DNA from: a virus
Direction: 5' to 3' (one strand)
DNA: 38,179 nt
IMG/VR virus record: IMGVR_UViG_3300042691_025899
Location: 1-38,179 of that record
Of the stretch, positions 1-38,010 are shown in pieces. The stretch's first letter is position 1. Every line of letters starts with the position of its first letter. Below the pieces are notes generated by a model, which searched no databases, was not told where the DNA came from, and saw only the letters and a list, made by a program, of their open reading frames with translations. Made by a program: the position numbers and the translations under genes.

Positions 1-433
1 CCGGGGCCGGGGCCGCGCCGGGGGCCGGGGCCGCGCCGGGGGCCGGGGCCGGGGCCGCGCCGGGGGCCGGGGCCGGGGCCGCGCCGGGGGCGAGAGCCCC
101 GAACGGCACTGCCCGGTTGAGCGCCTCGCGACGTTTCTGGCAACCCCCACATGGCTTGATGCCGACGGTCTTGGTCACGGCAGCAACCACGTCGCCCAGC
201 CCGCGAATCCGATCCGTCTGAACTGGCGGCGGCGGCGGTGCTACTGGCGGGCCAAGCAACGGCGGATCAACCATGTTGCCTTGCCGTGACACCCGATGCG
301 AGCATGAAGCGCACTGGGCAAGATCATGCCCCGAGGTGCAAGTCGGTTCGCCCCCAAGAACGCGCCAAGACTTGCAGTCAACGATCGGCAACATGAGGTC
401 GCCGTACTGAAGATGACCATACGTGTGAGTCAT
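1..433 (-). CDS. CGGC-motif small phage protein with Ala/Pro repeat tail (cut by window edge)
   Basis: An open frame runs from ATG at 433 off the left edge without a stop. The start overlaps the TGA of the preceding gene as ATGA, which supports it. The protein begins MTHTYGHLQYGDLML. It has cysteines in a C-x8-C-x2-C cluster (about residues 32-44), a proline-rich linker, then KPCGGCQKRREALNR, a motif recurrent in small phage proteins next to tail and lysis genes. The rest is a repeat of the type GAAPAPAP, so the GC-rich tandem DNA at 1-95 is read in frame as an Ala/Pro tail. The cysteines could bind zinc, but this is inference. The function is unknown and the C-terminus is outside the window. 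Confidence 0.7.
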   Translation of the reverse strand, partial: MTHTYGHLQYGDLMLPIVDCKSWRVLGGEPTCTSGHDLAQCASCSHRVSRQGNMVDPPLLGPPVAPPPPPVQTDRIRGLGDVVAAVTKTVGIKPCGGCQKRREALNRAVPFGALAPGAAPAPAPGAAPAPAPGAAPAPGAAPAP

Positions 434-2286
434 GTCACGGCAATCAGCGTGGCGTCGGTCTGGCAGAACACCTTGGGCGATTGGAAGCAGTCAAGCACGC
501 ATGGCTCCGGAGTCGGGTTCTCCAGATAGAACTGAGCGCAATCCTCTGTTCCCGGTGGGCAGCACGGCGCGATGTTGTAGATGAACGGATAGCAGCGGCA
601 TTGCGTCTTGGGCAGAAGCATCTGCGGACACAGCGTTGTCCATCCGACCTGCAGCACCACCGGAGGAGCATTGGGCGGATAGACCACGACATCGTTCTGC
701 GGGAACCCGAACCGCGCAAGGCAGTGCGGAACGTTCTCGTAGAAGTTGATGTCCGTGCAGATGGCTATCTGCGCGTCGGCGGTCTCTGCGATCCGCTGCA
801 TCGTGTACCTGCTGCCGAACGCGTATTCAGGCATCGACAGGCAATGAATCGTGTACGGGACATCGTTACCCAGCGCCGAGATCGCGCAGTTCGTGATCGC
901 TCCTCCATCGCAGGAGTACTCGGCGTCCAGTTCCTGCGTGGCGCAGACGTAATACCGGGTTGATGTGGCCCGCAGATACACGTCAGCCGTGTTGGTGGTC
1001 GGGTTGTACACCACGCGGTCCACGTAGATGGCGTCGCCGATCTGGTAGTTCGGCCGATCGTTTGGCCCCTGCCACGGGCATAGCAGGCAGGACTGCCGGA
1101 ACCCGAACCAGAAGAACGCCGACCATGGCCCAAGGCCCGTTGCCGTCACCTGCGCCCCGAGCCGCGCATTGATCCGCTCGGCCAGATGCCCGGCGTTCCC
1201 GGAGAACATGATGACGGTCAGCCCGCACACATTCACGGACGGCACAACGAACGCCCCCCAACCGCTGTTGACCGTGTACGGCGCAGTGCTGACGATGCTC
1301 CCCAAGAACAGTGCGTTCAAATCATTCTGATCGGTGCAGTCGTATCCACGCGACGTGACGAAGCAGCACGGGAACCGAAGACGCAGGATGTCCTCATCGT
1401 GATCGTTGAGGCACGGATTGACGGAATAGCAAGTCTTGACCCGATATGTCTCAAGCGGGTCGTAGGTGCTGTCGCAGAACTCCGGTACCTGTTCGCAGTT
1501 GGAGGTGTTTCCGCAGCAGTCGCCCGCCGGGTCGCAGTTCGGATCATCGTCGCAGGACAAGTACTCGTACCAGAACTGCCTTCGCTCTCCCGGGCATCCG
1601 CCGAGGCATGGCCCCTGATCCTGCGGCTCCGCGCAATCTGCTTGACCGTTCTCCTCCTCGCAGCAGATGCACGGCCCGATCTTCTGGCTGACCTGCTTGA
1701 CCATGCTTTCAATGCGGATCGGCGGGCCGTGGTCACACCTCGTAGCCGGGCCGACACCGAACTGCGTGACACAGGCAGTGAACGTCGAAGAGATCGTCAC
1801 TTCCTTGCCGCGCACGGTTCCGAACTGGTCATAGAAGTCGTAGCACTCAGCCACGAGTTCCTCGCATGGCAGGGCCGGCTGCGTCAATCCAGCGCCCGCT
1901 AGTGCGGCGACGCCCCCGATGGCGCCTTGCACCTGCGGATCGGGATAGCAGCAGGGATTCGGCCCGGCCACCTTGTTCTTGACTTTGAACAGCGTGCCTA
2001 CGTTCTGCGGATACAGAGGGCTCGGGTCTGGGCACGGAACCGGATCAACACCCGTGAGCACATAGATGCAGCACTCGTAAACGATGAAGTAGCACTTCGT
2101 CGGATCGGGCGGGACCGGAATGCCAATCGACGCCAGATACGACGGGCAGAATTCAATGCGCGGCTCCGCGGATTTGCTGCACGAAGTGGGACAGCAATAA
2201 TCGTCCTCAAACTCCGGACAGATCAACGCGTAATAAGTCTCCCCGGATGGTTCGCAGCAGCAGCGGTATGCGACCTCGCTGCTCAA
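430..2286 (-). CDS. very cysteine-rich late protein, unknown function
   Basis: A 618-aa protein with about 53 cysteines (roughly 8.6 percent), many as CC pairs or CxxC/CxC (RCCCEP near the N-terminus, GPCICCEE, GDCCG, QCRCYP, APCCPP). I see no signal peptide or clear membrane segment. The frame opens with TTG at 2286, two bases after the stop of the 38-aa gene upstream; no better in-frame ATG is evident. It is the second-to-last gene seen in the late operon, downstream of the tail fibre and small membrane proteins. The cysteines suggest a disulfide-knitted or metal-binding structural protein, perhaps a virion surface or adhesion component, but this is inference. I do not recognise a family. 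Confidence 0.8.
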   Translation of the reverse strand: MSSEVAYRCCCEPSGETYYALICPEFEDDYCCPTSCSKSAEPRIEFCPSYLASIGIPVPPDPTKCYFIVYECCIYVLTGVDPVPCPDPSPLYPQNVGTLFKVKNKVAGPNPCCYPDPQVQGAIGGVAALAGAGLTQPALPCEELVAECYDFYDQFGTVRGKEVTISSTFTACVTQFGVGPATRCDHGPPIRIESMVKQVSQKIGPCICCEEENGQADCAEPQDQGPCLGGCPGERRQFWYEYLSCDDDPNCDPAGDCCGNTSNCEQVPEFCDSTYDPLETYRVKTCYSVNPCLNDHDEDILRLRFPCCFVTSRGYDCTDQNDLNALFLGSIVSTAPYTVNSGWGAFVVPSVNVCGLTVIMFSGNAGHLAERINARLGAQVTATGLGPWSAFFWFGFRQSCLLCPWQGPNDRPNYQIGDAIYVDRVVYNPTTNTADVYLRATSTRYYVCATQELDAEYSCDGGAITNCAISALGNDVPYTIHCLSMPEYAFGSRYTMQRIAETADAQIAICTDINFYENVPHCLARFGFPQNDVVVYPPNAPPVVLQVGWTTLCPQMLLPKTQCRCYPFIYNIAPCCPPGTEDCAQFYLENPTPEPCVLDCFQSPKVFCQTDATLIAVT

Positions 2287-2287
2287 C

Positions 2288-2404
2288 TCACATCTTGCCC
2301 CGGCGCTTCATGCACAGGTACCAGCCAGCACCGAAGCCAACAGCGCCAAGAAGGAGGGCGAACCAGAGCGAGCCGAGGAAGTCACCGAAGTCTGCGAGGA
2401 TCAT
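2288..2404 (-). CDS. 38-aa single-span membrane protein
   Basis: A short gene starting at ATG 2404, overlapping the TGA of the upstream lipoprotein-like gene as ATGA, and ending at TGA 2288-2290. The product begins MILADFGDFLGSLWFALLL, continues as a hydrophobic glycine-rich span and ends YLCMKRRGKM. It thus has one transmembrane helix followed by a positively charged tail, which predicts a cytoplasmic C-terminus. The translational coupling and the membrane topology make it credible despite its size. Tiny membrane proteins at this place in phage late operons are often lysis or holin-related, but no specific family is recognised. Confidence 0.6.
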   Translation of the reverse strand: MILADFGDFLGSLWFALLLGAVGFGAGWYLCMKRRGKM

Positions 2405-2935: not shown

Positions 2936-3217
2936 TCACGGCTTGGCCTCAATGCGCTCCAGCCTCTTTTCCACTTGGCTGACGCGCTCGGCAATCACTT
3001 TGATGGCCGTATTCGCGTCCGCCCCTCTTTCCTTGAGCGCAATCAAATCACCGGAAATCTGCAATAGCGTCCGCGTCTGCTGCTCATCTGCCTCAGATCG
3101 GCGACCGATGTAAATCGCGCCCCCGAGCAAGGTTGTAAGCGTCAGAGCGAGTTGCGCCCATTCCAGCGCGAGGCGCGGACGGGCGTGGGGCTTGTGTTCA
3201 GTTGTCTGATCGTTCAT
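2936..3217 (-). CDS. small membrane protein with coiled coil (holin-region type)
   Basis: A 93-aa protein starting ATG 3217. The first 20 residues are charged. A hydrophobic helix (LALTLTTLLGGAIYIG) is followed by a long amphipathic helix rich in Glu, Arg and Lys, ending SQVEKRLERIEAKP, which looks like a coiled coil. Single-span proteins with this layout are common next to phage fibre and lysis genes and are sometimes annotated as holin-like. The gene sits one base from the next start downstream, consistent with coupled translation. No endolysin is visible beside it, so a lysis role is a guess. Confidence 0.6.
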   Translation of the reverse strand: MNDQTTEHKPHARPRLALEWAQLALTLTTLLGGAIYIGRRSEADEQQTRTLLQISGDLIALKERGADANTAIKVIAERVSQVEKRLERIEAKP

Positions 3218-3406: not shown

Positions 3407-5467
3407 TCAAATCCGGTAGCAAATAGTCGTGACACGGAGAACGCCTGCGCCGCCAAGACCACCAGCACCGCCAGCGGTGCTGCCTCTGCCGCCACCACCA
3501 CCGCCTGATCCGCGAATACCCGCGCCGCCAGCGCCGCCTGCTCCCGCTGCGTTGCCTCCGCCACCACCAGCACCATTGCCGCAGAGTTTCCCGGTAACAA
3601 TTGTGCCCGCGCCTCCTACCCCTCCGCCAATTGCACCCGCCGCTCCTCCGCCACCCTGAGTAGGCACTGCGGGCGAAACATTGGTGACCATGTCCGCCAA
3701 ATCACCCGCACCACCCTGATATCCAGCACCAGTTGTTGAGTCAGCGCCAGCCCCGCCGCCACCGGGTGCGTTTGGCCCACCATAGCGGCCCGAATTGAAC
3801 GTAGAGCCTCCCCCTCCCCAATAAGTTTGTTGAACCGCAGCGGCGAACTGTTGTTTGCTTCTCCTCGCGGCTGCAACAACTGCCAAGACTCCGCCGCCCT
3901 GCGCAACGACGATGTTTCCGAAAGATGTATTACCACCAATTCCCCCGCTAACAATACCGCCAGCGCCAATCGTCACAGTTACGGACGCGGCTACCAATGC
4001 CGCCGGAATCGATTCTGACGCGTATTCGCCGCCAGCGCCGCCGTTACCGTTTGTTGTTGTAGTTCCGGATGAACCCGCCGCACCTCCACCAATGCACTCA
4101 ACGTAACAATGAACGGCACCGCTCGGCTTCGTCCACGTTCCTGACGAGGTGAACGTCTGCGTATCGATGTACACATCCCTGCCGTCAAGAACGTTCCCGT
4201 TCATCGTCAGCCCGGTCCCGAGAAGCAGTTGCGTAGCCGCCGCTGATGTCGAGTCTGAACCGATGAGGCGCGAAACAGCACTCAAGTTTGCCAACTTCGC
4301 AGTCGTTACGACCCCGTTGTCAATCGTCCATGTCCCACCGCTTCCGGAAACGCTGATATCGCCTTTGTCGCCGTCCCCTTGAGTACCGACAGCCCCAACA
4401 CCGATGGCTGAACGCGCCGCCGCTCCGTCAACAGCCTTGAGCACGTTTCTGCCGACCGTAGTTGAGTCGACGATGTAGTCCGATTCGGTCGATTCAATCT
4501 CCGTATGGACGAGGATCTTGCCCTGCGTGGGATGCGCGTGCGCCACCCAACCGATCTGAACCGACCAATTCGGCGCCACTGGCTCAGTAGTCGTGAACGT
4601 CCCCGCGGTCGTGGGTGACAAGTAAAGCGTGTCGCCGTCATTGAAAGCCGACGTATTCAGGTTGTCCAAGATCCCCGAGATCTGAACAGGCCCGGTCTGG
4701 TTGGTTCCGATGTTGTCTGCGGCCACGCCGACGGTGTGCATCGTGGTGTACGAATCGGCTCTTGCCTTCTCAATCGTCGGGTTCTGCCCCGACGCCCCGC
4801 TGATGTACACGGGCTGGCCACGGGTGATGGTGGCGCCAGTGTTGTTTCTAGCAGTAAATCGAATCCGGTCGGCCGTCCCACCGACAACCGTGACGGTCGT
4901 GCCGGATATCAGAAGGTCGCTGCTTGAAAGTTCTGTCGGCGCTTGCGACAGGCTGCTGCTGCCGATGAATCGCGATGGCGATGTCAGATTGGACAACTTT
5001 GCCAATCCAAGGCTCGCGTCAATGACACTGAGATTTGGGATCGTCCCGCCGATAGTGCTAGAAGAGTTCGGCCGCACGCCTAGTTGCGGCGGAGTACCAC
5101 CGTAGATTTCCAAAGATCCAGCCGGGGCTACCTCTGTGTACTCATTTGAGAGAGGGCCGTTCGTAGCAATAATCCGGTTCGGCGCGGCAGATTGCTGCAG
5201 CATCCCGTAGGTAATGCCGTTGTTCGCAACGGAAACGGTCCCGCTCACAACGATCGGACCACCCGTAAGCCCGGCGCCTGTATTTACCTGCGTAACCGTT
5301 CCGGTGCTGCCTTCCGAAGCCCATCCCGTGTCATAGTTGCTGTTGCTCAACTTCCGAAGGTACTGCCCTGTCGTACCGCCCGAAGGAACACCGATGCCCG
5401 GCTGTCCAGACAACACCGTCAGCGTCACGCCGCTGCTTGTGATCGTAATGGTGACGTCTTCGTTCAT
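3407..5467 (-). CDS. tail fibre / receptor-binding protein with glycine-rich tip
   Basis: 686 aa, ATG at 5467, overlapping the preceding stop. The N-terminal part contains typical fibre sequence: a GTTGQYLRKLSN..DTGW segment shared by many phage fibres, then TVTQVNTGAGLTGGPI and repeated beta-rich SGTVSVANNGI segments. The middle resembles trimeric beta-helix repeats. From about residue 470 to the end the protein is dominated by glycine clusters (GGAGG, GGGGS, GAGGGGG) separated by short hydrophobic strands. This is reminiscent of the polyglycine adhesin tips known from T4-like gp38 proteins. I infer that this tip contacts the host receptor. It is followed at once by the small fibre-associated gene. 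Confidence 0.8.
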   Translation of the reverse strand: MNEDVTITITSSGVTLTVLSGQPGIGVPSGGTTGQYLRKLSNSNYDTGWASEGSTGTVTQVNTGAGLTGGPIVVSGTVSVANNGITYGMLQQSAAPNRIIATNGPLSNEYTEVAPAGSLEIYGGTPPQLGVRPNSSSTIGGTIPNLSVIDASLGLAKLSNLTSPSRFIGSSSLSQAPTELSSSDLLISGTTVTVVGGTADRIRFTARNNTGATITRGQPVYISGASGQNPTIEKARADSYTTMHTVGVAADNIGTNQTGPVQISGILDNLNTSAFNDGDTLYLSPTTAGTFTTTEPVAPNWSVQIGWVAHAHPTQGKILVHTEIESTESDYIVDSTTVGRNVLKAVDGAAARSAIGVGAVGTQGDGDKGDISVSGSGGTWTIDNGVVTTAKLANLSAVSRLIGSDSTSAAATQLLLGTGLTMNGNVLDGRDVYIDTQTFTSSGTWTKPSGAVHCYVECIGGGAAGSSGTTTTNGNGGAGGEYASESIPAALVAASVTVTIGAGGIVSGGIGGNTSFGNIVVAQGGGVLAVVAAARRSKQQFAAAVQQTYWGGGGSTFNSGRYGGPNAPGGGGAGADSTTGAGYQGGAGDLADMVTNVSPAVPTQGGGGAAGAIGGGVGGAGTIVTGKLCGNGAGGGGGNAAGAGGAGGAGIRGSGGGGGGRGSTAGGAGGLGGAGVLRVTTICYRI

Positions 5468-5808: not shown

Positions 5809-7647
5809 TCAAGGCGGCGGCTGTTGCACACATTCGACATTCACGGCGTTCGGCATAGAGAACCAGTACTGCGGCGGCTGAGTCGCGTCGACCGTGTTGA
5901 GTGTCTGCGTTGAATAATATTCGACCATCGTCACGACCGTGTCGACCATGATTGGCAACGGGGTCACGATTGCGTTGGGGTTGTTTGCCCCGAGGACGCC
6001 GGGAGCCGTAACACCCGTCCCCTGCAGGTATGGCCCAACATTGCCGTACTCACAGAGGTTCTTGGCGACGTACGCGTCTTCCTGCCTCGGGTAAGGGATT
6101 GACAGCACCCAAGCCGCGATGTTGTTCTGGAAGTTCGGATCGACCTCTACGAATCGGTAAGCCCATTTGCCGACCGCATATTGCTCGTAGCCCGTGATCT
6201 TCGCAGCGAACACGCGAGTCTGCGGAGCGCCGACATCCACCTCCACGGCTCCGTTGTACAGCCGCCTGACGCCAGCCATCCCCTTCCCGAACACGATTTC
6301 AGACGGGTCATTTGGCAGCAACCCATGCGGCCCGCACAGCCACTCCGATACATCGCATTCCGAGACAGTGACAGGCACGTATTCACCCATGCGCTTGACA
6401 AGGGTGAAGTGCATCCCGGTTCGATAGCCCCCGCGTGGCAGAGATGTCCATCCTGCCCAAACCGTCTTGCCAAACAGGATCGTGGTACGCGCCTCTAGGA
6501 GATTCGTTACCTCCGCTGCGTATTGCGCGTAGTCCCATCCGGGAGCGGTTGTCAGCGCGGCGTTTGCCGCGGCAAGATTCACGCTGGGCACGAGGCCCGC
6601 CACAATGGGACGGGGTTCGTGAAGAACCCGGCAACCATCCGGCGCACGAGTGCGCCCGGTCGATATCGTCTGGTTCGACTGCGCTTGCGAATCCTTGTAG
6701 AACAACGATGCCTTGGCGGTCGCGGCGTTGGCCCTGCTCTCGGTTGGCGTATGGCGCGTCAGCCCCTCAACCGTCCGGTACGGGAACGTCACCTTGACGT
6801 TCGACGGCATGGCGTTGATTTGGTAGTTGGCGTTGCTGTCCCAGAGCGCAAGGAGCGGCTCTGCGGGAACCCCGAGTTCTGAGCCCGCTTGTGTACCACC
6901 CATGTACGCCCGCTTGTTGCTCGTCATCCACGAGTTCAGCGCCGCCCTGTCTCCACCGAGCAGCGTGACCGTCCATCCCGTTGTGAAGTCCCATTGCAAC
7001 TGGTATCCGGTCGCGGCAAGGATCATGTCAAGAGCCATTGCCACCGAGCAATTCGGCGTGAATGTCAAGTCGGCGATTCGGCTGAGCAACACAGCGTTCG
7101 GTGCGTAAGCCGCGATACCAATGGTTTCACCGAAGAAGTTGAGATAGCCCGTAATCGCCGTTACCAACGACGTCAGCGTGGCGTTGTTGTCGTTGTCCCA
7201 CGCACGTCGACCGTCTTCGGTGTACAGCAAGCCTGATGCAACAGTCAGTTGCGCCGGGGTAAGGCAGGTCTGTTGCCATAGGTAACGGATGTCAACGGCC
7301 TCTACCAGCGCAAGGCCATTTCCCGTTGGAACCTCGTAGACAGGCTTGGGCGGAAGAAGCAGCATGTCCTTCTGGTACAGCGTTGACCCAAGATTCTCCC
7401 GCCAGTTGACCGTGATGCTTGGCGACCCAATCCCGAGAACGTCCTGCGCATACAGAGCCGACAACTGCGACTGCGATATCAAGCCGACAGCGCGACCGAC
7501 CCTGCTTGCGCCGCCGGGGAGTTCGATTCGGAAGAGTTCCGATTCGGTGAGCCCAAGACATGACGTGATGTCACAGATTTCCTCGTTCGGTACAACGAAC
7601 GGGTAAATGTCATTCGCGCCTGCGCCTTGGAACCATGCGGCGATCAT
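5809..7647 (-). CDS. tail-tip hub-like protein
   Basis: 612 aa, ATG at 7647, overlapping the upstream stop as ATGA. The region around residues 90-260 (VEAVDIRYLWQQT, then SVAMALDMILAATGYQLQWD and FTTGWTVTLLGG) resembles the hub-type domains of phage tail-associated proteins, in which the tail tip forms a ring that docks the fibres. The C-terminus is proline-rich. It sits between a second large tail protein and the BppU-like protein, where tail hub or Tal proteins are encoded. No peptidase or lysozyme motif is evident, so a role in wall penetration is not supported. Confidence 0.55.
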   Translation of the reverse strand: MIAAWFQGAGANDIYPFVVPNEEICDITSCLGLTESELFRIELPGGASRVGRAVGLISQSQLSALYAQDVLGIGSPSITVNWRENLGSTLYQKDMLLLPPKPVYEVPTGNGLALVEAVDIRYLWQQTCLTPAQLTVASGLLYTEDGRRAWDNDNNATLTSLVTAITGYLNFFGETIGIAAYAPNAVLLSRIADLTFTPNCSVAMALDMILAATGYQLQWDFTTGWTVTLLGGDRAALNSWMTSNKRAYMGGTQAGSELGVPAEPLLALWDSNANYQINAMPSNVKVTFPYRTVEGLTRHTPTESRANAATAKASLFYKDSQAQSNQTISTGRTRAPDGCRVLHEPRPIVAGLVPSVNLAAANAALTTAPGWDYAQYAAEVTNLLEARTTILFGKTVWAGWTSLPRGGYRTGMHFTLVKRMGEYVPVTVSECDVSEWLCGPHGLLPNDPSEIVFGKGMAGVRRLYNGAVEVDVGAPQTRVFAAKITGYEQYAVGKWAYRFVEVDPNFQNNIAAWVLSIPYPRQEDAYVAKNLCEYGNVGPYLQGTGVTAPGVLGANNPNAIVTPLPIMVDTVVTMVEYYSTQTLNTVDATQPPQYWFSMPNAVNVECVQQPPP

Positions 7648-16292: not shown

Positions 16293-16340
16293 GTCGCTAC
16301 TGATGGTATCACGCGTCGGTATTCATACAAGCCATAGTGT

Positions 16341-17453
16341 TCACCCGCTGATGAAACCGGGGTCAGGGAACTGCCCGCTGTCAATCAATTGCTGCCGACG
16401 CCCATTGTGCTTCTTGATTGCTGCATAGTCCGGAACACCCTCCTCATCCGTCCAACCCCTTGAAGCCGCCACAACCAGCGGGATCGGCTTCCATCGGCAT
16501 CGGCAGTTGAAGCCGCCGGGTGTGGGAATCCCTTGTGCGTCGATCTGCTCTACCGTCGCCACGTAACCGTCCATGGCCTTGTGGGTATCACGGGTGCGGT
16601 TGTCTTTCGTGGAGGTGAACTGCATGACAGGGACGAACGCCTTGACCTCCGAATCGCGAACGATGTCAAGTTGCCCCTGTGTCTGCGCCCGGTTGATGTT
16701 GGTGCGGTAGACCGTTTCCAGCCGGGCGTCCGTCAAGTCCGTCCCGGTGGCCAGAACTGTCTGCTCAATGAAGTCGCCGACACCCAACTTTGTCAACCTC
16801 TTGCCCGCAACCGACTTCGCCACCTTGCCCTCAATGACCTTGGCTAGGAGTTCTTTCGTCGCTTCTACCTGCTTCTGCGACATTCCCGTGACGAAGAACG
16901 CGCTCTGCGCCAGTTGCTGAACACCGGGTGATCGACGCCTCCGGACTTCCGCTGGCAAGGCTGCAGGAGCGCGGCCCTCTGGAGGGCGGGTGAGGGCCGG
17001 AAAGATCACTCGGGCGAGTTCTGGGCTCGTCTCCACGATCTTGCGAAGGGCAGTCGCAGCCTCGTCCCTCCGCATCTCGTTGGCTGCAGCGAAGGCGTAG
17101 TCAATCAGACGATCCCACTTCTCCCTCGTCAGCGGGATTGCCGTCATGAAGCGCGAGATGACCTCTCGCGCTGGGCCGGACTCAAATCGCAGGAGCATCT
17201 CAGGGACATCCCTGTCAAACGTGATCGGCTTCGGGATGGGCTTCTTGACACCTATCCCAGCCTCAATGAGGGTCTGTCCTGCACCTGTCGCCCACGAAGC
17301 CAGCAGTATCGCGGCTGTGTCCTGCGCCCAACGATCCCATTCGGCTGCGCCGCCGCCGCCGCGGACCTGCGCGGCCACGGCCTTTCGGTACGCGTCCTTG
17401 CCATCAGCGAGCAGGGAGCGGAACAGGTCGTTGATGGACGGCCTAACGGCCAT
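16341..17453 (-). CDS. MuF-type head morphogenesis protein
   Basis: The start is taken as ATG 17453 (MAVRPSINDLF), overlapping the portal stop by 11 bases; a TTG at 17462 is a weaker choice. The protein of about 370 aa has a long helical N-terminal part. The C-terminal domain is of MuF/SPP1-gp7 type: TDLTDARLETVYRTNINRAQ, then TRDTHKAMDGYVA and PGGFNCRCRWKPIPL. The R-N-x-RA and CRC motifs are characteristic of this minor head protein family, whose members are packaged with the portal. Placement directly after the portal is the family's usual place. Confidence 0.8.
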   Translation of the reverse strand: MAVRPSINDLFRSLLADGKDAYRKAVAAQVRGGGGAAEWDRWAQDTAAILLASWATGAGQTLIEAGIGVKKPIPKPITFDRDVPEMLLRFESGPAREVISRFMTAIPLTREKWDRLIDYAFAAANEMRRDEAATALRKIVETSPELARVIFPALTRPPEGRAPAALPAEVRRRRSPGVQQLAQSAFFVTGMSQKQVEATKELLAKVIEGKVAKSVAGKRLTKLGVGDFIEQTVLATGTDLTDARLETVYRTNINRAQTQGQLDIVRDSEVKAFVPVMQFTSTKDNRTRDTHKAMDGYVATVEQIDAQGIPTPGGFNCRCRWKPIPLVVAASRGWTDEEGVPDYAAIKKHNGRRQQLIDSGQFPDPGFISG

Positions 17454-23918: not shown

Positions 23919-24677
23919 TCACGTGGTCCGACCGTCCCTTCTCCGGAGCGCGTCGAGGTAGATGCCCCGGTAGTCGAGCAGGACGTCAAGCCGATCTCGG
24001 GAGTTGGGTTCCATCCGTGCTCGCTGTGCGCCCCACGCGGCGAACACCTCTCGGGCGGCGTTCTCGTCGATCCGGGCCTCGTAGTCGGAGTGGAGTCCGC
24101 CGGGGTTGTCGGAGAACTTGTTCGCGAAGGCCGTCCATTCTGATCGGATGGAGATCATGCACCTGTCATGAACGAGGCCGACCATGTCCTTGTCATGCTT
24201 GAGGCGGAAGCGGTAGCGCAGGTCACCGATGCGCTCGGCATGGATGGCGACCACGGACTCGCATCGGGCGTGCGCCTTGACAGGCTTGGTTGCCGACCAT
24301 GCGAACTGCTGGTACTGCATGGCCCCGATGGCGCAGTTGGGCTGCGCGATGACTTGCTGTGCTGCGTCGATGACGGTCGGCGCCTCGGTCTTCTGTACGC
24401 GCCTGTTGACGACCAAGCCCATGCTGGTGATGTCGTCGTCGATCATCCAGAACCACTTGTGGCCGCTGAACTTGGCGTGGTCAAGGATGAAGTTCCGTGA
24501 GTAGCAGAGTCCTTCATTGTCCTTGTCAAGGACGACGATGTTCGGCACGCCGGCTCTGCGGTACACGGGCGCGTCCTGCGGCTCGACCACTACGGTGAAC
24601 GGCAGTCCCCTCAGGAGGGTGAACGACTGTCCTTCGGGTCGCCCCTTGCTCGGGATGTAGATCGGCCAAGGCTTCAT
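23919..24677 (-). CDS. TET-associated-type DNA glycosyltransferase
   Basis: 252 aa from ATG 24677, which overlaps the dioxygenase stop as ATGA. It begins MKPWPIYIPSKGRPEGQSF, typical of phage GT-A-like enzymes that start with an IPSKGR motif. It continues with YRRAGVPNIVVLDKDNEGLC, and WFWMIDDDITSMGLV supplies the metal-binding DDD (DxD-type) motif. The C-terminal part has helices and basic residues. Enzymes of this family (called TET-associated glycosyltransferases) are encoded beside TET/JBP dioxygenases and transfer sugars to 5-hydroxymethylcytosine in phage DNA. The immediate neighbour here is such a dioxygenase, which strongly supports the role. The sugar donor cannot be told. Confidence 0.75.
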   Translation of the reverse strand: MKPWPIYIPSKGRPEGQSFTLLRGLPFTVVVEPQDAPVYRRAGVPNIVVLDKDNEGLCYSRNFILDHAKFSGHKWFWMIDDDITSMGLVVNRRVQKTEAPTVIDAAQQVIAQPNCAIGAMQYQQFAWSATKPVKAHARCESVVAIHAERIGDLRYRFRLKHDKDMVGLVHDRCMISIRSEWTAFANKFSDNPGGLHSDYEARIDENAAREVFAAWGAQRARMEPNSRDRLDVLLDYRGIYLDALRRRDGRTT

Positions 24678-25498
24678 TCGGTCTTCCCTTTCGCTGCGCG
24701 GCGTCGCTCGTTCGCGGTACGGGCGCGGTTGAACGCTTTGACTTCCTCGCCGGGCGGCTCGCATCGCCACATGCCTTCAAGCGAATAGAACACCACCGTG
24801 TATCGGGCAGCGTTGTCGGACAGCCTTCGGAACGGTGTCACGCCGTGCAGAAGCGACTGTCCGTCGAAGAGCAGGAGGGACTGATCACCGATGGCGAACG
24901 CCGTGTCAAGTTCCGGCACGGTGAGGTGACCACCTTCGATCTCGTTCTTGAACCCCAGCATCGCGGAGTTGACACTCTTGAAGTTGCCTCGGTCGAAGTG
25001 GTAGGGGAGGGGGTTGTTCTGGTTGACGATGCCGCTGGTGAACGGGGTGTCAGCGATGCGGTACTCGGGAAGCACCTTGCTCGCGATCTCTGCGTGCTTC
25101 GCCGCCTGTTCGGGGAACGCGGTCCTGTAGCACTCGTACGCCGTCTTCGCTGCTTCGACCAGCACCTCATGTTCAAGCGGCTGTGCTGCCGCCAGCGAGG
25201 TCTTTCGGCATGGCTGGTTGCGCAGGGGTAGCCGGGGCGCATATCCGAACGTCCTTGCCCGCGTGAACATGGCCTCTTTCGCGGCGCGGAACGCTTCGAT
25301 GTACTTGATGCGTCCGAGCGCAGCGCGGAGGGTCGAGAAGTCCTTGTCGAGCCTGTGCCAGTAGGCCAGCACGGGCTTGCCATCGACCTCCACGATCGTG
25401 TCCTCCTGCACGAAACGGGCGCAGTCGGAGAGCGCGGCCTTTCGGCGACGCCATTGCGAGAGGTCAATCGTCCGCTTCGGCACGCTCAGATACTGCAT
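24674..25498 (-). CDS. TET/JBP-family 2-oxoglutarate/Fe(II) dioxygenase
   Basis: 274 aa from ATG 25498 (MQYLSVPKRTIDLSQW); it overlaps the end of the ParB-like gene by 35 bases. The catalytic core shows an HxD iron site in PYHFDRGN (His167, Asp169) and a distal His218 in SLLHGVTPF. Arg232 in ARYTVVFYS is the likely 2-oxoglutarate ligand. The intervening NEIEGGHLTVPELD and QSLLLFDGQ strands fit the TET/JBP double-stranded beta-helix. TET/JBP enzymes oxidise the methyl group of thymine or 5-methylcytosine in DNA. Adjacent to a glycosyltransferase of the matching type, I infer that it makes 5-hydroxymethylcytosine for glycosylation. Confidence 0.8.
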   Translation of the reverse strand: MQYLSVPKRTIDLSQWRRRKAALSDCARFVQEDTIVEVDGKPVLAYWHRLDKDFSTLRAALGRIKYIEAFRAAKEAMFTRARTFGYAPRLPLRNQPCRKTSLAAAQPLEHEVLVEAAKTAYECYRTAFPEQAAKHAEIASKVLPEYRIADTPFTSGIVNQNNPLPYHFDRGNFKSVNSAMLGFKNEIEGGHLTVPELDTAFAIGDQSLLLFDGQSLLHGVTPFRRLSDNAARYTVVFYSLEGMWRCEPPGEEVKAFNRARTANERRRAAKGKTE

Positions 25499-26132
25499 GT
25501 CCTGCTTTCTCAAGGAGATAGACGAGCACGTCGGCGTTCGTCTCGAGCGAGTTGTCCTCGGCGATCTGCGCGAGGGCCTCGACGATGAGTCCGTACTGCG
25601 ATGCGGTGTACGTGAACACGAGCTGCCGCACCTGCGAGGCATCGTATTCCTCAAGGGTGCGCGTGAACCCGGACGGCAGTTCCGAGATGCCGCCCGCGAC
25701 CTGCCCGAGATTGGCGACCGCCTCGGGAGCGCGTTCCAGCAGGGAGCGCAGTTCCTCATCCGAGTATCCGGCTGCGTTGGCTAGCGCGGAGTCGACCTCA
25801 CGCAGCTCCGAGAGTTGGGCACGGAGGGTGTCATCGTCCCATGCGGCCAGTTCGCTCGAGCGGTTGTCGGCGATGGCGAAGGCTCGCGCCTCGTCTGCGG
25901 ACAGGTTCGTGCGCGAGACCCACAGTTCCTCCCATCCGAGACGCTTCGCTGCCTCAAGCGTGCCGTTTCCGGCGATGACGGTGTTGTCGGCAAGCACGAC
26001 AACGGGCCGCTGCTGCCCGAACTTGTTGAGCGAGGCCATGATCGCCTCGATGTTGCGCTCGGGGTGTCGGCGTGCGTTCTTCGGGTCGGAGGTCAGTCTT
26101 TCGATCCGGACGCGTTCGTGCTTCTCTGTCAC
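25464..26132 (-). CDS. ParB/Srx-like nuclease-domain protein
   Basis: 222 aa from GTG 26132, overlapping the preceding stop as GTGA. The N-terminal domain is ParB-like: RLTSDPKNARRHPERNIEAI, then LNKFGQQRPVVVL, VIAGNGTLEAAKRLG and a following AFAIADNRSSELAAWD. These are the hallmarks of phage ParB-domain proteins that often accompany DNA-modification enzymes. It lacks an obvious fused methylase. In this operon it probably supplies a DNA-binding or NTPase-like partner to the dioxygenase and glycosyltransferase. Whether it guides, nicks or recruits is unknown. Confidence 0.75.
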   Translation of the reverse strand: MTEKHERVRIERLTSDPKNARRHPERNIEAIMASLNKFGQQRPVVVLADNTVIAGNGTLEAAKRLGWEELWVSRTNLSADEARAFAIADNRSSELAAWDDDTLRAQLSELREVDSALANAAGYSDEELRSLLERAPEAVANLGQVAGGISELPSGFTRTLEEYDASQVRQLVFTYTASQYGLIVEALAQIAEDNSLETNADVLVYLLEKAGHAVSERAEADD

Positions 26133-28566: not shown

Positions 28567-28761
28567 TCCTGACCTCCGCGCCCGCCGCCCCGGAACCCCA
28601 CGACGGAACCGGGGCGGCGGCACGGGCGGGGCGCAGGACGCCCGCTGCGGGGCCGGGGCCGCGCCGGGGGCGGGCGGGGGCCGGGGCCGGGGCGGGCCGT
28701 GCAGGGGCCGTGCAGGGGCCGCAAACGGGCCGCGCCCGGGGGCGGGCGAAAGATTCTTGAC
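28567..28761 (+). repeat. GC-rich hairpin block upstream of unit B
   Basis: Starts with a perfect 10-bp stem GCCGCCCCGG/CCGGGGCGGC (28584-28618), 18 bases after the unit A stop, which may terminate unit A. The rest is GGGGCCG- and CCGGGGC-type repeats resembling the block at 36006-36148, including shared GCAGGGGCCGT and ACGGGCCG segments. No gene is visible. The block is followed by the conserved element copy B. Confidence 0.7.
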
Positions 28762-35040: not shown

Positions 35041-35499
35041 ATGCTGACCGCTGAACGATTGCGTTCCTTGATGCGATACGAGCCGCATACGGGCCTGTTC
35101 TTCTGGAAGAACCATGCGGTTCCTGCTGGCTGTTTCGATGGCCACGGCTACCGAGTGATCTGTGTCGATGGTCGTCTCCATCGTGCACATCGACTCGCAT
35201 GGCTGTACCGGCACGGAAAGATGCCGAACGGAGACATCGATCACATCGACGGCGACCGGGGCAACAACCGGATAGCGAACCTGCGTGACGTCTGCCGATC
35301 CCGAAACCTGCTGAACCGACATTCGCCTCGACCGGAGAACCGTCTCGGCATCATCGGCGTGCGAAAGAAGCGAAGCAAGTATGAAGCCCGCATTCAGTTT
35401 CGTGGCAAGCGAATCTCACTAGGAACCTACGCAACACCTGAACAAGCATCCCGGGCTGTTGAGGATGCGAGAACCAAACTCATAGGAGGACAACGATGA
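35041..35499 (+). CDS. HNH endonuclease with AP2 domain
   Basis: 152 aa from ATG 35041, ten bases after the ERF stop. The N-terminal half is an HNH domain: LHRAHRLAWLYRHGKMPNGD followed by IDHIDGDRGNNRIANLRDV. The C-terminal half is AP2-like: IIGVRKKRSKYEARIQFRGK followed by RISLGTYATPEQASRAVEDA. This arrangement is typical of free-standing phage homing endonucleases. It may be an inserted mobile gene, although it fits the operon spacing and overlaps the next gene as ATGA. Confidence 0.85.
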   Translation: MLTAERLRSLMRYEPHTGLFFWKNHAVPAGCFDGHGYRVICVDGRLHRAHRLAWLYRHGKMPNGDIDHIDGDRGNNRIANLRDVCRSRNLLNRHSPRPENRLGIIGVRKKRSKYEARIQFRGKRISLGTYATPEQASRAVEDARTKLIGGQR

Positions 35500-36239: not shown

Positions 36240-36303
36240 TCACGCGTCGGGCATGTCGCCCGGCCCGTCCCCCCGGTTCGGGGTGTCACGAAAGGAACAA
36301 GTC
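36240..36303 (+). promoter_or_regulatory. structured 5' leader C
   Basis: Hairpins CGGGC/GCCCG (36248-36262) and CCCC/GGGG (36270-36283, loop CGGTTC) are followed by TGTCACGAAAGGAACAAGTC and the ATG at 36304. The second stem has a different sequence from leaders A, B and D but is still paired. Confidence 0.7.
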
Positions 36304-37245
36304 ATGCCGACCGCCGCTCCCCGCATCACCGCTCGCGACCTCACCTACGGCATCGAGATCGAGTGCGGCATCAACCACGATGCGCCCGTCCGCCCCGGCT
36401 CGTATCACGCGGGCAACACGGTGACCGCGCTGCCCGCCTCCACGGTTGACGGCGTCACGCGCAACTGGCGGGCCGACCGCGACGGCTCGCTGCACTTCCG
36501 CAACGCGATGGCGGTCGAGTTCGTCAGCCCGATCCTCAAGGGAGCGGACGGCCTCGACAACATCCGCGCCGCCTGTGCCCAGATCAAGGCATGGGGCGGC
36601 AAGACGAATCGCTCGTGCGGCCTGCACGTCCACGTCGCCTTCCCGACCGAGGACGTTGCCGCGATGCGCCGCCTCACCAAGTTGGTCGGTCGCTTCGAGG
36701 ACGCCCTGTACGCCGCGTCCGGCACTCCCGACCGCCGCAATGGCGGCTACTGCCGCCCGATCAAGACCGAGCGCAACAAGTCGTTCGCGTGGAACGTCGC
36801 TGACAAGCGTGCGCTCGGTGGCTACTCGCAGCCGCACGACCTCAACGACCGCTACCGCATCCTCAACTGGACTAACTTCATCTCCGGTCGCTTCAACGCT
36901 GTCGAGTTTCGCGTGTTCTCCGGCTCGCTCAACCCGGCCAAGATCGCCGCTTGGGTTCAGATCTGCCTCACGCTCGTCGAGATGGCTCTCGACAACTGCG
37001 ATGCCGATTGGGACATCCGCTCTTCCGACCTCGGCAAGTACGGTCGCTCGGTCGGCGAGCAGCAGGTCGGTTACATGTGCCGCTACTGCTGGTTCTGGCG
37101 CCGCCGCCGCGACCGCAACTACGGCGACGTCGGTCACTCCGTGTTCACCCGCGAGTCCTCGCTCGCGACCATGAAGGCTCTCGCCGTGCGTCACGACGAG
37201 CGCGCAGGGGTGCGGCAGGTCGCCGCCCCCGGCGCGAACGCCTGA
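36304..37245 (+). CDS. amidoligase (glutamine-synthetase-fold, Amidoligase_2 type)
   Basis: 313 aa from ATG 36304, after leader C. It contains LTYGIEIECGI (GxExE-type metal and nucleotide motif), HFRNAMAVEFVSPILKGADG, SCGLHVHVAFPTED and FNAVEFRVFSGSLNPAKIAA. These are conserved blocks of the glutamine-synthetase-like carboxylate-amine ligases. They form amide bonds, coupling a carboxylate to an amine with ATP. The next gene encodes a class II glutamine amidotransferase, as in the amidoligase gene neighbourhoods described by Iyer and colleagues. The substrate is unknown; a small peptide, a virion protein or cell-wall precursor are possible. The long frame on the minus strand is a shadow. Confidence 0.85.
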   Translation: MPTAAPRITARDLTYGIEIECGINHDAPVRPGSYHAGNTVTALPASTVDGVTRNWRADRDGSLHFRNAMAVEFVSPILKGADGLDNIRAACAQIKAWGGKTNRSCGLHVHVAFPTEDVAAMRRLTKLVGRFEDALYAASGTPDRRNGGYCRPIKTERNKSFAWNVADKRALGGYSQPHDLNDRYRILNWTNFISGRFNAVEFRVFSGSLNPAKIAAWVQICLTLVEMALDNCDADWDIRSSDLGKYGRSVGEQQVGYMCRYCWFWRRRRDRNYGDVGHSVFTRESSLATMKALAVRHDERAGVRQVAAPGANA

Positions 37246-37278: not shown

Positions 37279-38010
37279 ATGTGCGGACTCTTCGGTATGT
37301 ACGCCAACTCGCCGCTGTCGATGGCGGCTCTCCCCACCCTCATTCGTGTCGCCAACTCGCAGGTTCACCGTGGTCACCACGCGTTCGGCCTCGCTTGGGT
37401 CAACGAGGACCGTCAGGTGTTCGCGTTCAAGCGACCCGGCGCTGTCACCGATCACCCCGAGGACGTCGCTCGCGGCGAGGGTGCGCTGGGCCTCATCGGC
37501 CACACGCGGTGGGCGACCCACGGCTCGTACGACGACAACGCCAACAACCACCCGCACCCCTTCTCTTACAAGGATCGCACGTGCTACCTCGCGCACAACG
37601 GCGTGATCTGCAACTACGAGCAGATCGCCGCCGAGCGCGGCCTCACGATGCGGACGCAGTGCGACTCCGAGGTTCTCGCCCGGCACATCGAGGACGGCTC
37701 AGGCCACATCCTCGACCGCGTGGTGGCTGCGATCGCCGATGTCTCCTCCTACGCACCGTGCTGCGTGACGGTCGTGACCCACAAGGGAATCGTCCTCGCC
37801 CGGCGCGGCAATCCGCTGTTCTGGTCTGACACGGGCAACCTCGCTTGGTTCGCTTCCACCCGCGCCGCTCTCCCGGGTCGTGTGTACGAGGTTCCTGACA
37901 ACCGCGCCTTCTTCATCCCGAGCGGCCCCGGCGGAGTGCGCGAAGCCAAGTTGCGGCGCCGCGAAGCGACGACGATGCGCTTCGTGGGCTCTGACCTGTT
38001 CACCGAGTAA
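37279..38010 (+). CDS. class II glutamine amidotransferase (Ntn-hydrolase type)
   Basis: 243 aa from ATG 37279, with AAAGGAA upstream. MCGLFGMYAN places the nucleophilic Cys at position 2 after Met removal. The rest fits the GATase II fold: VHRGHHAFGLAW, IGHTRWATHGSYDDN, LAHNGVICNYEQI and CDSEVLARHIEDG, which correspond to the glutamine-binding and oxyanion motifs. There is no fused synthetase or sugar-isomerase domain. It likely hydrolyses glutamine or a related gamma-glutamyl amide to supply ammonia or trim a product of the adjacent amidoligase. It ends unit C. Confidence 0.85.
   Translation: MCGLFGMYANSPLSMAALPTLIRVANSQVHRGHHAFGLAWVNEDRQVFAFKRPGAVTDHPEDVARGEGALGLIGHTRWATHGSYDDNANNHPHPFSYKDRTCYLAHNGVICNYEQIAAERGLTMRTQCDSEVLARHIEDGSGHILDRVVAAIADVSSYAPCCVTVVTHKGIVLARRGNPLFWSDTGNLAWFASTRAALPGRVYEVPDNRAFFIPSGPGGVREAKLRRREATTMRFVGSDLFTE

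Follow-up and report, generated by a model that had tools for sequence, protein, structure and literature searches.

The gene for a cysteine-rich late protein in the phage DNA analysed here is an exchangeable cassette that is swapped together with part of its downstream partner gene. This is our main point, and it lay beyond the reach of the initial annotation of this DNA. The window, meaning the whole stretch that we analysed, comprises 38,179 nucleotides of IMG/VR virus record IMGVR_UViG_3300042691_025899, and its features are collected in Table 1. We estimate the chance at about one half that the product is an exchangeable host-recognition protein, associated with the virion and stabilised by disulfides, that works with a cognate assembly partner.

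Table 1. Features of the window referred to in the text
Feature	Position	Strand	Basis
Partner gene, ATGA overlap with the cysteine-rich gene, runs off the contig end	2..433	-	ORF and related loci
Constant C-terminal part of the partner (RGLGDVVAAVTKTVGIKPCGGCQKRREALNRAVPF)	95..211	-	phrog_32048 match
N-terminal cysteine domain of the partner, only with body type A	254..433	-	38/38 type-A loci, 0/11 others
Cysteine-rich protein, body type A, 618 aa, 53 Cys	430..2286	-	ORF and orthologue comparison
Core domain, residues 272-503, two very long beta-strands (predicted)	778..1473	-	AlphaFold pLDDT 85.9, pTM 0.77
CCC codons (residues 9-11), constant joint for body exchange in relatives	2254..2262	-	homology stop at nt +31..33
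38-aa one-TM protein directly upstream of the cysteine-rich gene (MILADFGDFLGSLWFALLLGAVGFGAGWYLCMKRRGKM)	2288..2404	-	conserved in relatives
Lipoprotein-like protein with a later TM segment	2401-2994	-	conserved in relatives
TM coiled-coil protein	2936-3217	-	conserved in relatives
Tail fibre, DUF5907 repeats and glycine-rich C-terminal domain	3407..5467	-	PF19264 8.7e-18, phrog_863
Conserved tail-region protein, bait for related loci	5809..7647	-	collection of related contigs
TAGT/HMC-glycosyltransferase-like gene	23919-24770	-	
Queuine tRNA-ribosyltransferase-like gene	24674-25759	-	
HNH endonuclease with AP2 domain, beside Erf, RusA and Mu Gam-like genes	35041-35499	+	

The cysteine-rich gene and its cysteines

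As the initial annotation had described, the ORF starts with TTG and 53 of its 618 residues are cysteine (8.6%); TGC is the codon for 48 of them. Proteome averages are 0.7-0.9% for phages A511 and T4, and Milano structural proteins contain 2.1% (PMC10811340, PMC12796354), so that the value of 8.6% is well above the phage average; the confident structural genes of the same genome contain about 0-2%. The many CC pairs reported earlier were found (nine overlapping doublets, with the CCC at residues 9-11 counted in), but the CxxC pairs reported with them amounted to only two (CICC at 206 and CLLC at 400). No signal sequence was visible at the N-terminus (MSSEVAYRCCCEPSG), and the gene follows the tail genes in the late structural region on the minus strand, in agreement with its description as a late protein without a secretion signal. 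The tail fibre, portal, Gp36-like adaptor and terminase genes are on the same strand, in an order kept in relatives. The portal is of the Mu type, and portal, adaptor and terminase are only distantly like their cultured-phage versions.

The gene was compared with its relatives. A protein 90% identical over the full length was found on contig IMGVR_UViG_3300017747_002558, and comparison of the window gene with its orthologue (L001/L004) gave a dS of 0.85, a dN of 0.059 and a ratio of 0.069, with 53 of 53 cysteines retained at 90% identity, indicating a translated frame with selection acting on its cysteines. At the codon that is TTG in the window, the orthologue has GTG, and all relatives start at the same alignment column with [M/V]S...CCC, indicating that the TTG start is correct. 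On these comparisons the gene is real, translated and under purifying selection, which argues against non-translation, a possibility raised in the initial annotation. Every sequence used is a metagenomic contig, but intact genes of this architecture occur on dozens of separate contigs; together with the dN/dS of 0.07, this conservation pattern refutes an assembly or frame artefact, to which we give practically no weight.

We examined the conservation of the cysteines in type A, the body family of the window protein. The results showed that 36 cysteines were invariant among 27 full-length type-A sequences, and that 31 of 87 cysteine columns were invariant when the most divergent members were included. 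C209 and C565 were gained and lost jointly across type A, C292 and C467 were swapped for C293 and C465, and C72, C286, C482 and C576 were jointly absent in sequences of the L019/L078 type, a set blurred by L132 and L134. These paired gains and losses favour disulfides over metal, although pairing deduced from covariation is not proof. Some lineages have odd cysteine totals (43, 53), indicating that not every cysteine can be in an intramolecular pair.

The protein had been proposed to form a disulfide-bonded particle component or to bind metal. The disulfide part of the first proposal is favoured by the covariation, and the location in the virion is putative; the second proposal is disfavoured. 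A metal-binding or metal-storage protein (zinc or Fe-S) would agree with the 53 cysteines in the body and with the cysteine domain of the partner (C..C..CxxC), which looks zinc-ribbon-like. However, the dense CxC/CxxC motifs of a metallothionein-like or zinc-ribbon protein were not found, and the two CxxC among 53 cysteines argue against metal binding of either type. The spacing is not metallothionein-like and the cysteines change in pairs, and we regard a metal protein as very improbable.

We searched the protein against Pfam, PHROGs, PDB sequences, cultured phages and plasmids, and its family against 84,980 bacterial and archaeal genomes (one genome per prokaryote species). The results showed no match in the former and no relative in the latter. 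The bait protein likewise had no relative in these prokaryote genomes or in cultured phages, and body types B, C and E had no match in cultured phages. The earlier statement that no family was recognised therefore holds across all of these searches, and close homology to a known enzyme, which had also been raised, was not seen, the databases searched containing no homologue.

Structure prediction had been suggested as a check. The AlphaFold model of the full-length protein was of moderate confidence (pLDDT 66), whereas the core, the most conserved part of type A and common to the L093 fusion protein described below, was predicted with confidence (pLDDT 86) and contained beta-strands of 26 and 23 residues. 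Neither Foldseek (full model against PDB and BFVD, core against BFVD) nor VIA-align (full and core models) gave a convincing match, and the best fold-search Z values, 4.3 and 3.8, were below those given by a common arrangement. The check thus yielded a confident core but no fold identification. The modelled core appears to be unmatched among known folds, which is not proof of a new fold.

Whole-body exchange at a constant CCC joint

Related loci were collected with the bait protein, which is encoded about 5 kb upstream of the cysteine-rich gene. The search returned 43 viral contigs at first and more were added later; a search with the cysteine-rich family itself added further members. The results showed that the same slot held a cysteine-rich ORF starting [M/V]S...CCC in nearly every contig reaching far enough, and in about 50 related viral contigs the slot protein was cysteine-rich (5-9%) with a short leader ending in CCC. 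The bodies in the slot belong to six mutually unrelated families (A-F), represented by 44 dereplicated sequences of type A, six of C, two of B and one each of D, E and F. Cysteine content ranged from 5.3% to 8.6% across the body types and was 4.5% in the fused L093 protein. In profile-profile comparison, type A matched none of B, C, D and E, and a match between B and C was confined to the 11-residue leader MSGIL.A.CCC; type F was set apart through BLAST clustering only.

We compared contigs that carry different bodies in nearly identical surroundings. Contigs L024 (type A), L026 (type B) and L023/L033 (type C), which come from different metagenomes, share 90-95% DNA identity for kilobases on both sides of the gene. 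Their identity ends at nt +31 to +33 of the cysteine-rich gene, just past the CCC codons, and returns 111-340 nt past its stop, inside the partner gene. Between L005 (type B) and L006 (type D), an identity of 90.7% extends as far as the base preceding the start codon. The same junction was found for type C in six contigs, for type A in two and for type B in three contigs of identical length, and since several contigs per type have the same junctions, chimeric assembly is a poor explanation. CCC was retained in every body type and in L093, and the constant leader of about 11 residues is far shorter than the usual fibre attachment domains. At the level of sequence, these alignments demonstrate whole-body cassette exchange at the constant CCC joint.

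These results bear on the possibility that the protein is a structural or decorative part of the particle, a disulfide-locked stabiliser of tail or head that is exchanged by recombination and has no role in host choice. Phages Milano and 7-7-1 have structural proteins that are locked by disulfides (PMC10811340, PMC12796354), and within type A the gene changes slowly under strong purifying selection. However, if the protein did no more than stabilise virions, one would expect neither its replacement by unrelated bodies between flanks of 90-95% identity nor the need for a body-matched partner domain, and we consider this explanation unlikely.

Type A was also considered as a candidate for fast diversification by point mutation. 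Between the window and its 90%-identical relative, the cysteine-rich gene was 90% identical and the tail fibre 74%. The candidate was rejected, as the gene is slower-changing than the tail fibre.

The partner gene and the genome surroundings

We searched the partner against Pfam and PHROG, and its sole match was phrog_32048, the function of which is unknown; the body had no hit, and no homology to a known fibre, adhesin or Tfa family was detected in these databases. The C-terminal consensus of the partner, RGLGDVV..T.AVGIKPCGGC.KR..ALNRLVPF, was constant across types A, B, C, D and F and was not recognised in type E. The N-terminal domain has four cysteines (LPIxDCKSWRV..C....C..CxxC; LPIVDCKSWRV in the window) and was present in all 38 readable type-A loci and in none of 11 others, these loci being not all phylogenetically independent. 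In the L023/L024/L026 group, the N-terminal part of the partner switches within one close lineage. Comparison of the loci shows that the N-terminal half of the partner is co-exchanged with the body. A body-matched N-terminal half combined with a constant C-terminal half follows the principle by which a fibre is paired with its chaperone.

The type-A core was also found in a different phage, L093, which is represented by part of a contig of 62 kb and has other genes around this locus. The L093 protein has 1350 aa and consists of a MPRRICCC start, a glycine-rich region, a poly-glycine linker and a type-A core near the C-terminus. The core scored 56.7 bits against the type-A profile (at most 3.3 in 200 shuffles), and the gene after the fusion carries the type-A partner domain (19.0 bits, compared with at most 5.0 in shuffles), showing in profile comparison that body-partner matching persists in an unrelated phage. 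The best Pfam match of the glycine-rich region was weak (ALK_LTK_GRD, E 0.15), and its likeness to tail-fibre tips is one of composition only.

GC-rich tandem repeats (GGGGCC/GCGCCG units) were observed at 1-91 and 28648-28721 of the window. The repeat at 1-91 codes for a tail of the GAAPAPAPGA type on the partner protein. It sits at the end of the contig, so that this is probably the point at which the contig broke.

The lipoprotein-like and TM coiled-coil genes between the tail fibre and the cysteine-rich gene are possibly lysis genes. In more than 30 related loci of several body types (L009, L019, L023, L025, L039, L132, L143 and others), a hydrophobic ORF of 14-15 aa (45-48 nt), (M/V)xRLxILALCIVIVA, lies directly upstream of the cysteine-rich start, which its stop overlaps (ATGA/GTGA); the ORF is absent from the window. 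It may be a micropeptide or a signal-peptide-like leader. A frameshift fusion of this peptide to the cysteine-rich protein was considered and is mentioned only as an idea, as a slippery site was not seen and the peptide is missing from the window. In the L005/L006 sub-lineage, a small DTALHEGLHA-motif protein and an extra gene, phosphoesterase-like as judged by eye only (NFRVISHARNVHTVELLGG...; L005 11594-12499, L006 ~16300-17273), are inserted before the TM gene.

A late factor directed at the host or at competitors, whether surface-blocking, superinfection-excluding or released, might be encoded beside lysis genes and exchanged in an arms race. Small TM and lipoprotein genes lie directly upstream, the hydrophobic ORF overlaps the start in many relatives, and genes in an arms race typically have exchangeable bodies that are unrelated to each other. 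However, the cysteine-rich protein has no signal sequence, the constancy of the CCC leader and of the partner C-terminus points to docking at a fixed place, and L093 has its type-A core fused behind a glycine-rich region of the tail-fibre kind. We consider such a factor unlikely.

Elsewhere in the window, the glycosyltransferase-like and queuine tRNA-ribosyltransferase-like genes occur together with amidoligase- and glutamine amidotransferase-like genes (36253-37245 and 37279-38010, both on the plus strand), suggesting DNA hypermodification. No Rfam RNA or tRNA was found in the window.

Proposed function and comparison with known systems

In these phages, the short leader ending in three cysteines stays while everything behind it is swapped, each incoming body being unrelated in sequence and always packed with cysteines. 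The body brings its own matching N-terminal domain of the partner, the C-terminal part of which is constant in most types. The closest working model is a tail-fibre tip with its chaperone. The body would be a host-recognition (adhesin-like) domain stiffened by many disulfides, which would form once the particle has left the reducing cytoplasm. A constant docking point, possibly covalent, would be provided by the CCC leader, and the partner would be a body-specific assembly factor. Within this scheme we infer the disulfides (from the covariation), the virion location, the adhesin function, the chaperone role and the docking at CCC. In a more tentative version, which we think possible rather than probable, the constant triple-cysteine leader would be a covalent socket for unrelated cysteine-rich binding bodies, each with its own assembly-factor domain. 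If so, recombination could change a whole receptor-binding domain in one step.

Some observations stand against an adhesin: homology to known fibres, adhesins or Tfa proteins was not found, the leader is very short and membrane-protein genes adjoin. In addition, the identity of 90% within type A compared with 74% for the tail fibre, taken from one pair, indicates that this is not the fastest-changing host-range gene.

The pair appears to be a host-recognition or surface module that has no name so far and is carried by a widespread group of phages known only from uncultured material, and the prediction is that a body swap is a host or surface swap. It would be a further instance in which unrelated proteins have converged on an extreme cysteine content within a compartment regarded as reducing, and how and where phage disulfides form becomes directly testable. 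The bodies also offer ready-made cysteine-rich scaffolds without known relatives, type A being without a known fold match.

In Alteromonas phages A5 and V22, fibre and chaperone modules are common to distant phages (PMC10579305), and in the chaperone of cyanophage Pam3 a non-conserved N-terminal domain binds the fibre tip while the C-terminal domain drives trimerisation (PMC9608196). Like these fibre-chaperone modules (A5/V22, Pam3 gp24/gp25, Mu Tfa), the module described here is a late-region gene pair in which the C-terminal body is exchanged as a unit, the cognate downstream gene has a body-matched N-terminal domain and a constant C-terminal part, and unrelated phages have the module in common. 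Unlike them, it has bodies with 5-9% cysteine and a constant N-terminus of about 11 residues ending in CCC, and showed no sequence or fold similarity to them. Since homology was tested and not found, we do not file it as a member of a fibre or Tfa family.

The virions of the Agrobacterium phages Milano and 7-7-1 contain disulfide networks, with receptor-binding proteins disulfide-linked to the baseplate, and the cysteine content of their structural proteins, about 2-2.6%, was already called high (PMC10811340, PMC12796354). These cysteine-rich late proteins resemble the present one and set a precedent for disulfides in the finished particle. They are ordinary tail and capsid proteins, whereas the window encodes one protein of 8.6% cysteine with an unmatched fold and exchangeable bodies. 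Compared with the glycine-rich fibre tips S16 gp38 and Pam3 gp24, the cysteine-rich core is without a glycine-rich lattice and is encoded by a separate gene in the window. Like these tips, however, L093 carries its type-A core behind a glycine-rich region in one polypeptide, and the tail fibre encoded in the window has a Gly_rich_2-like domain at its end (PF21722, E 0.005).
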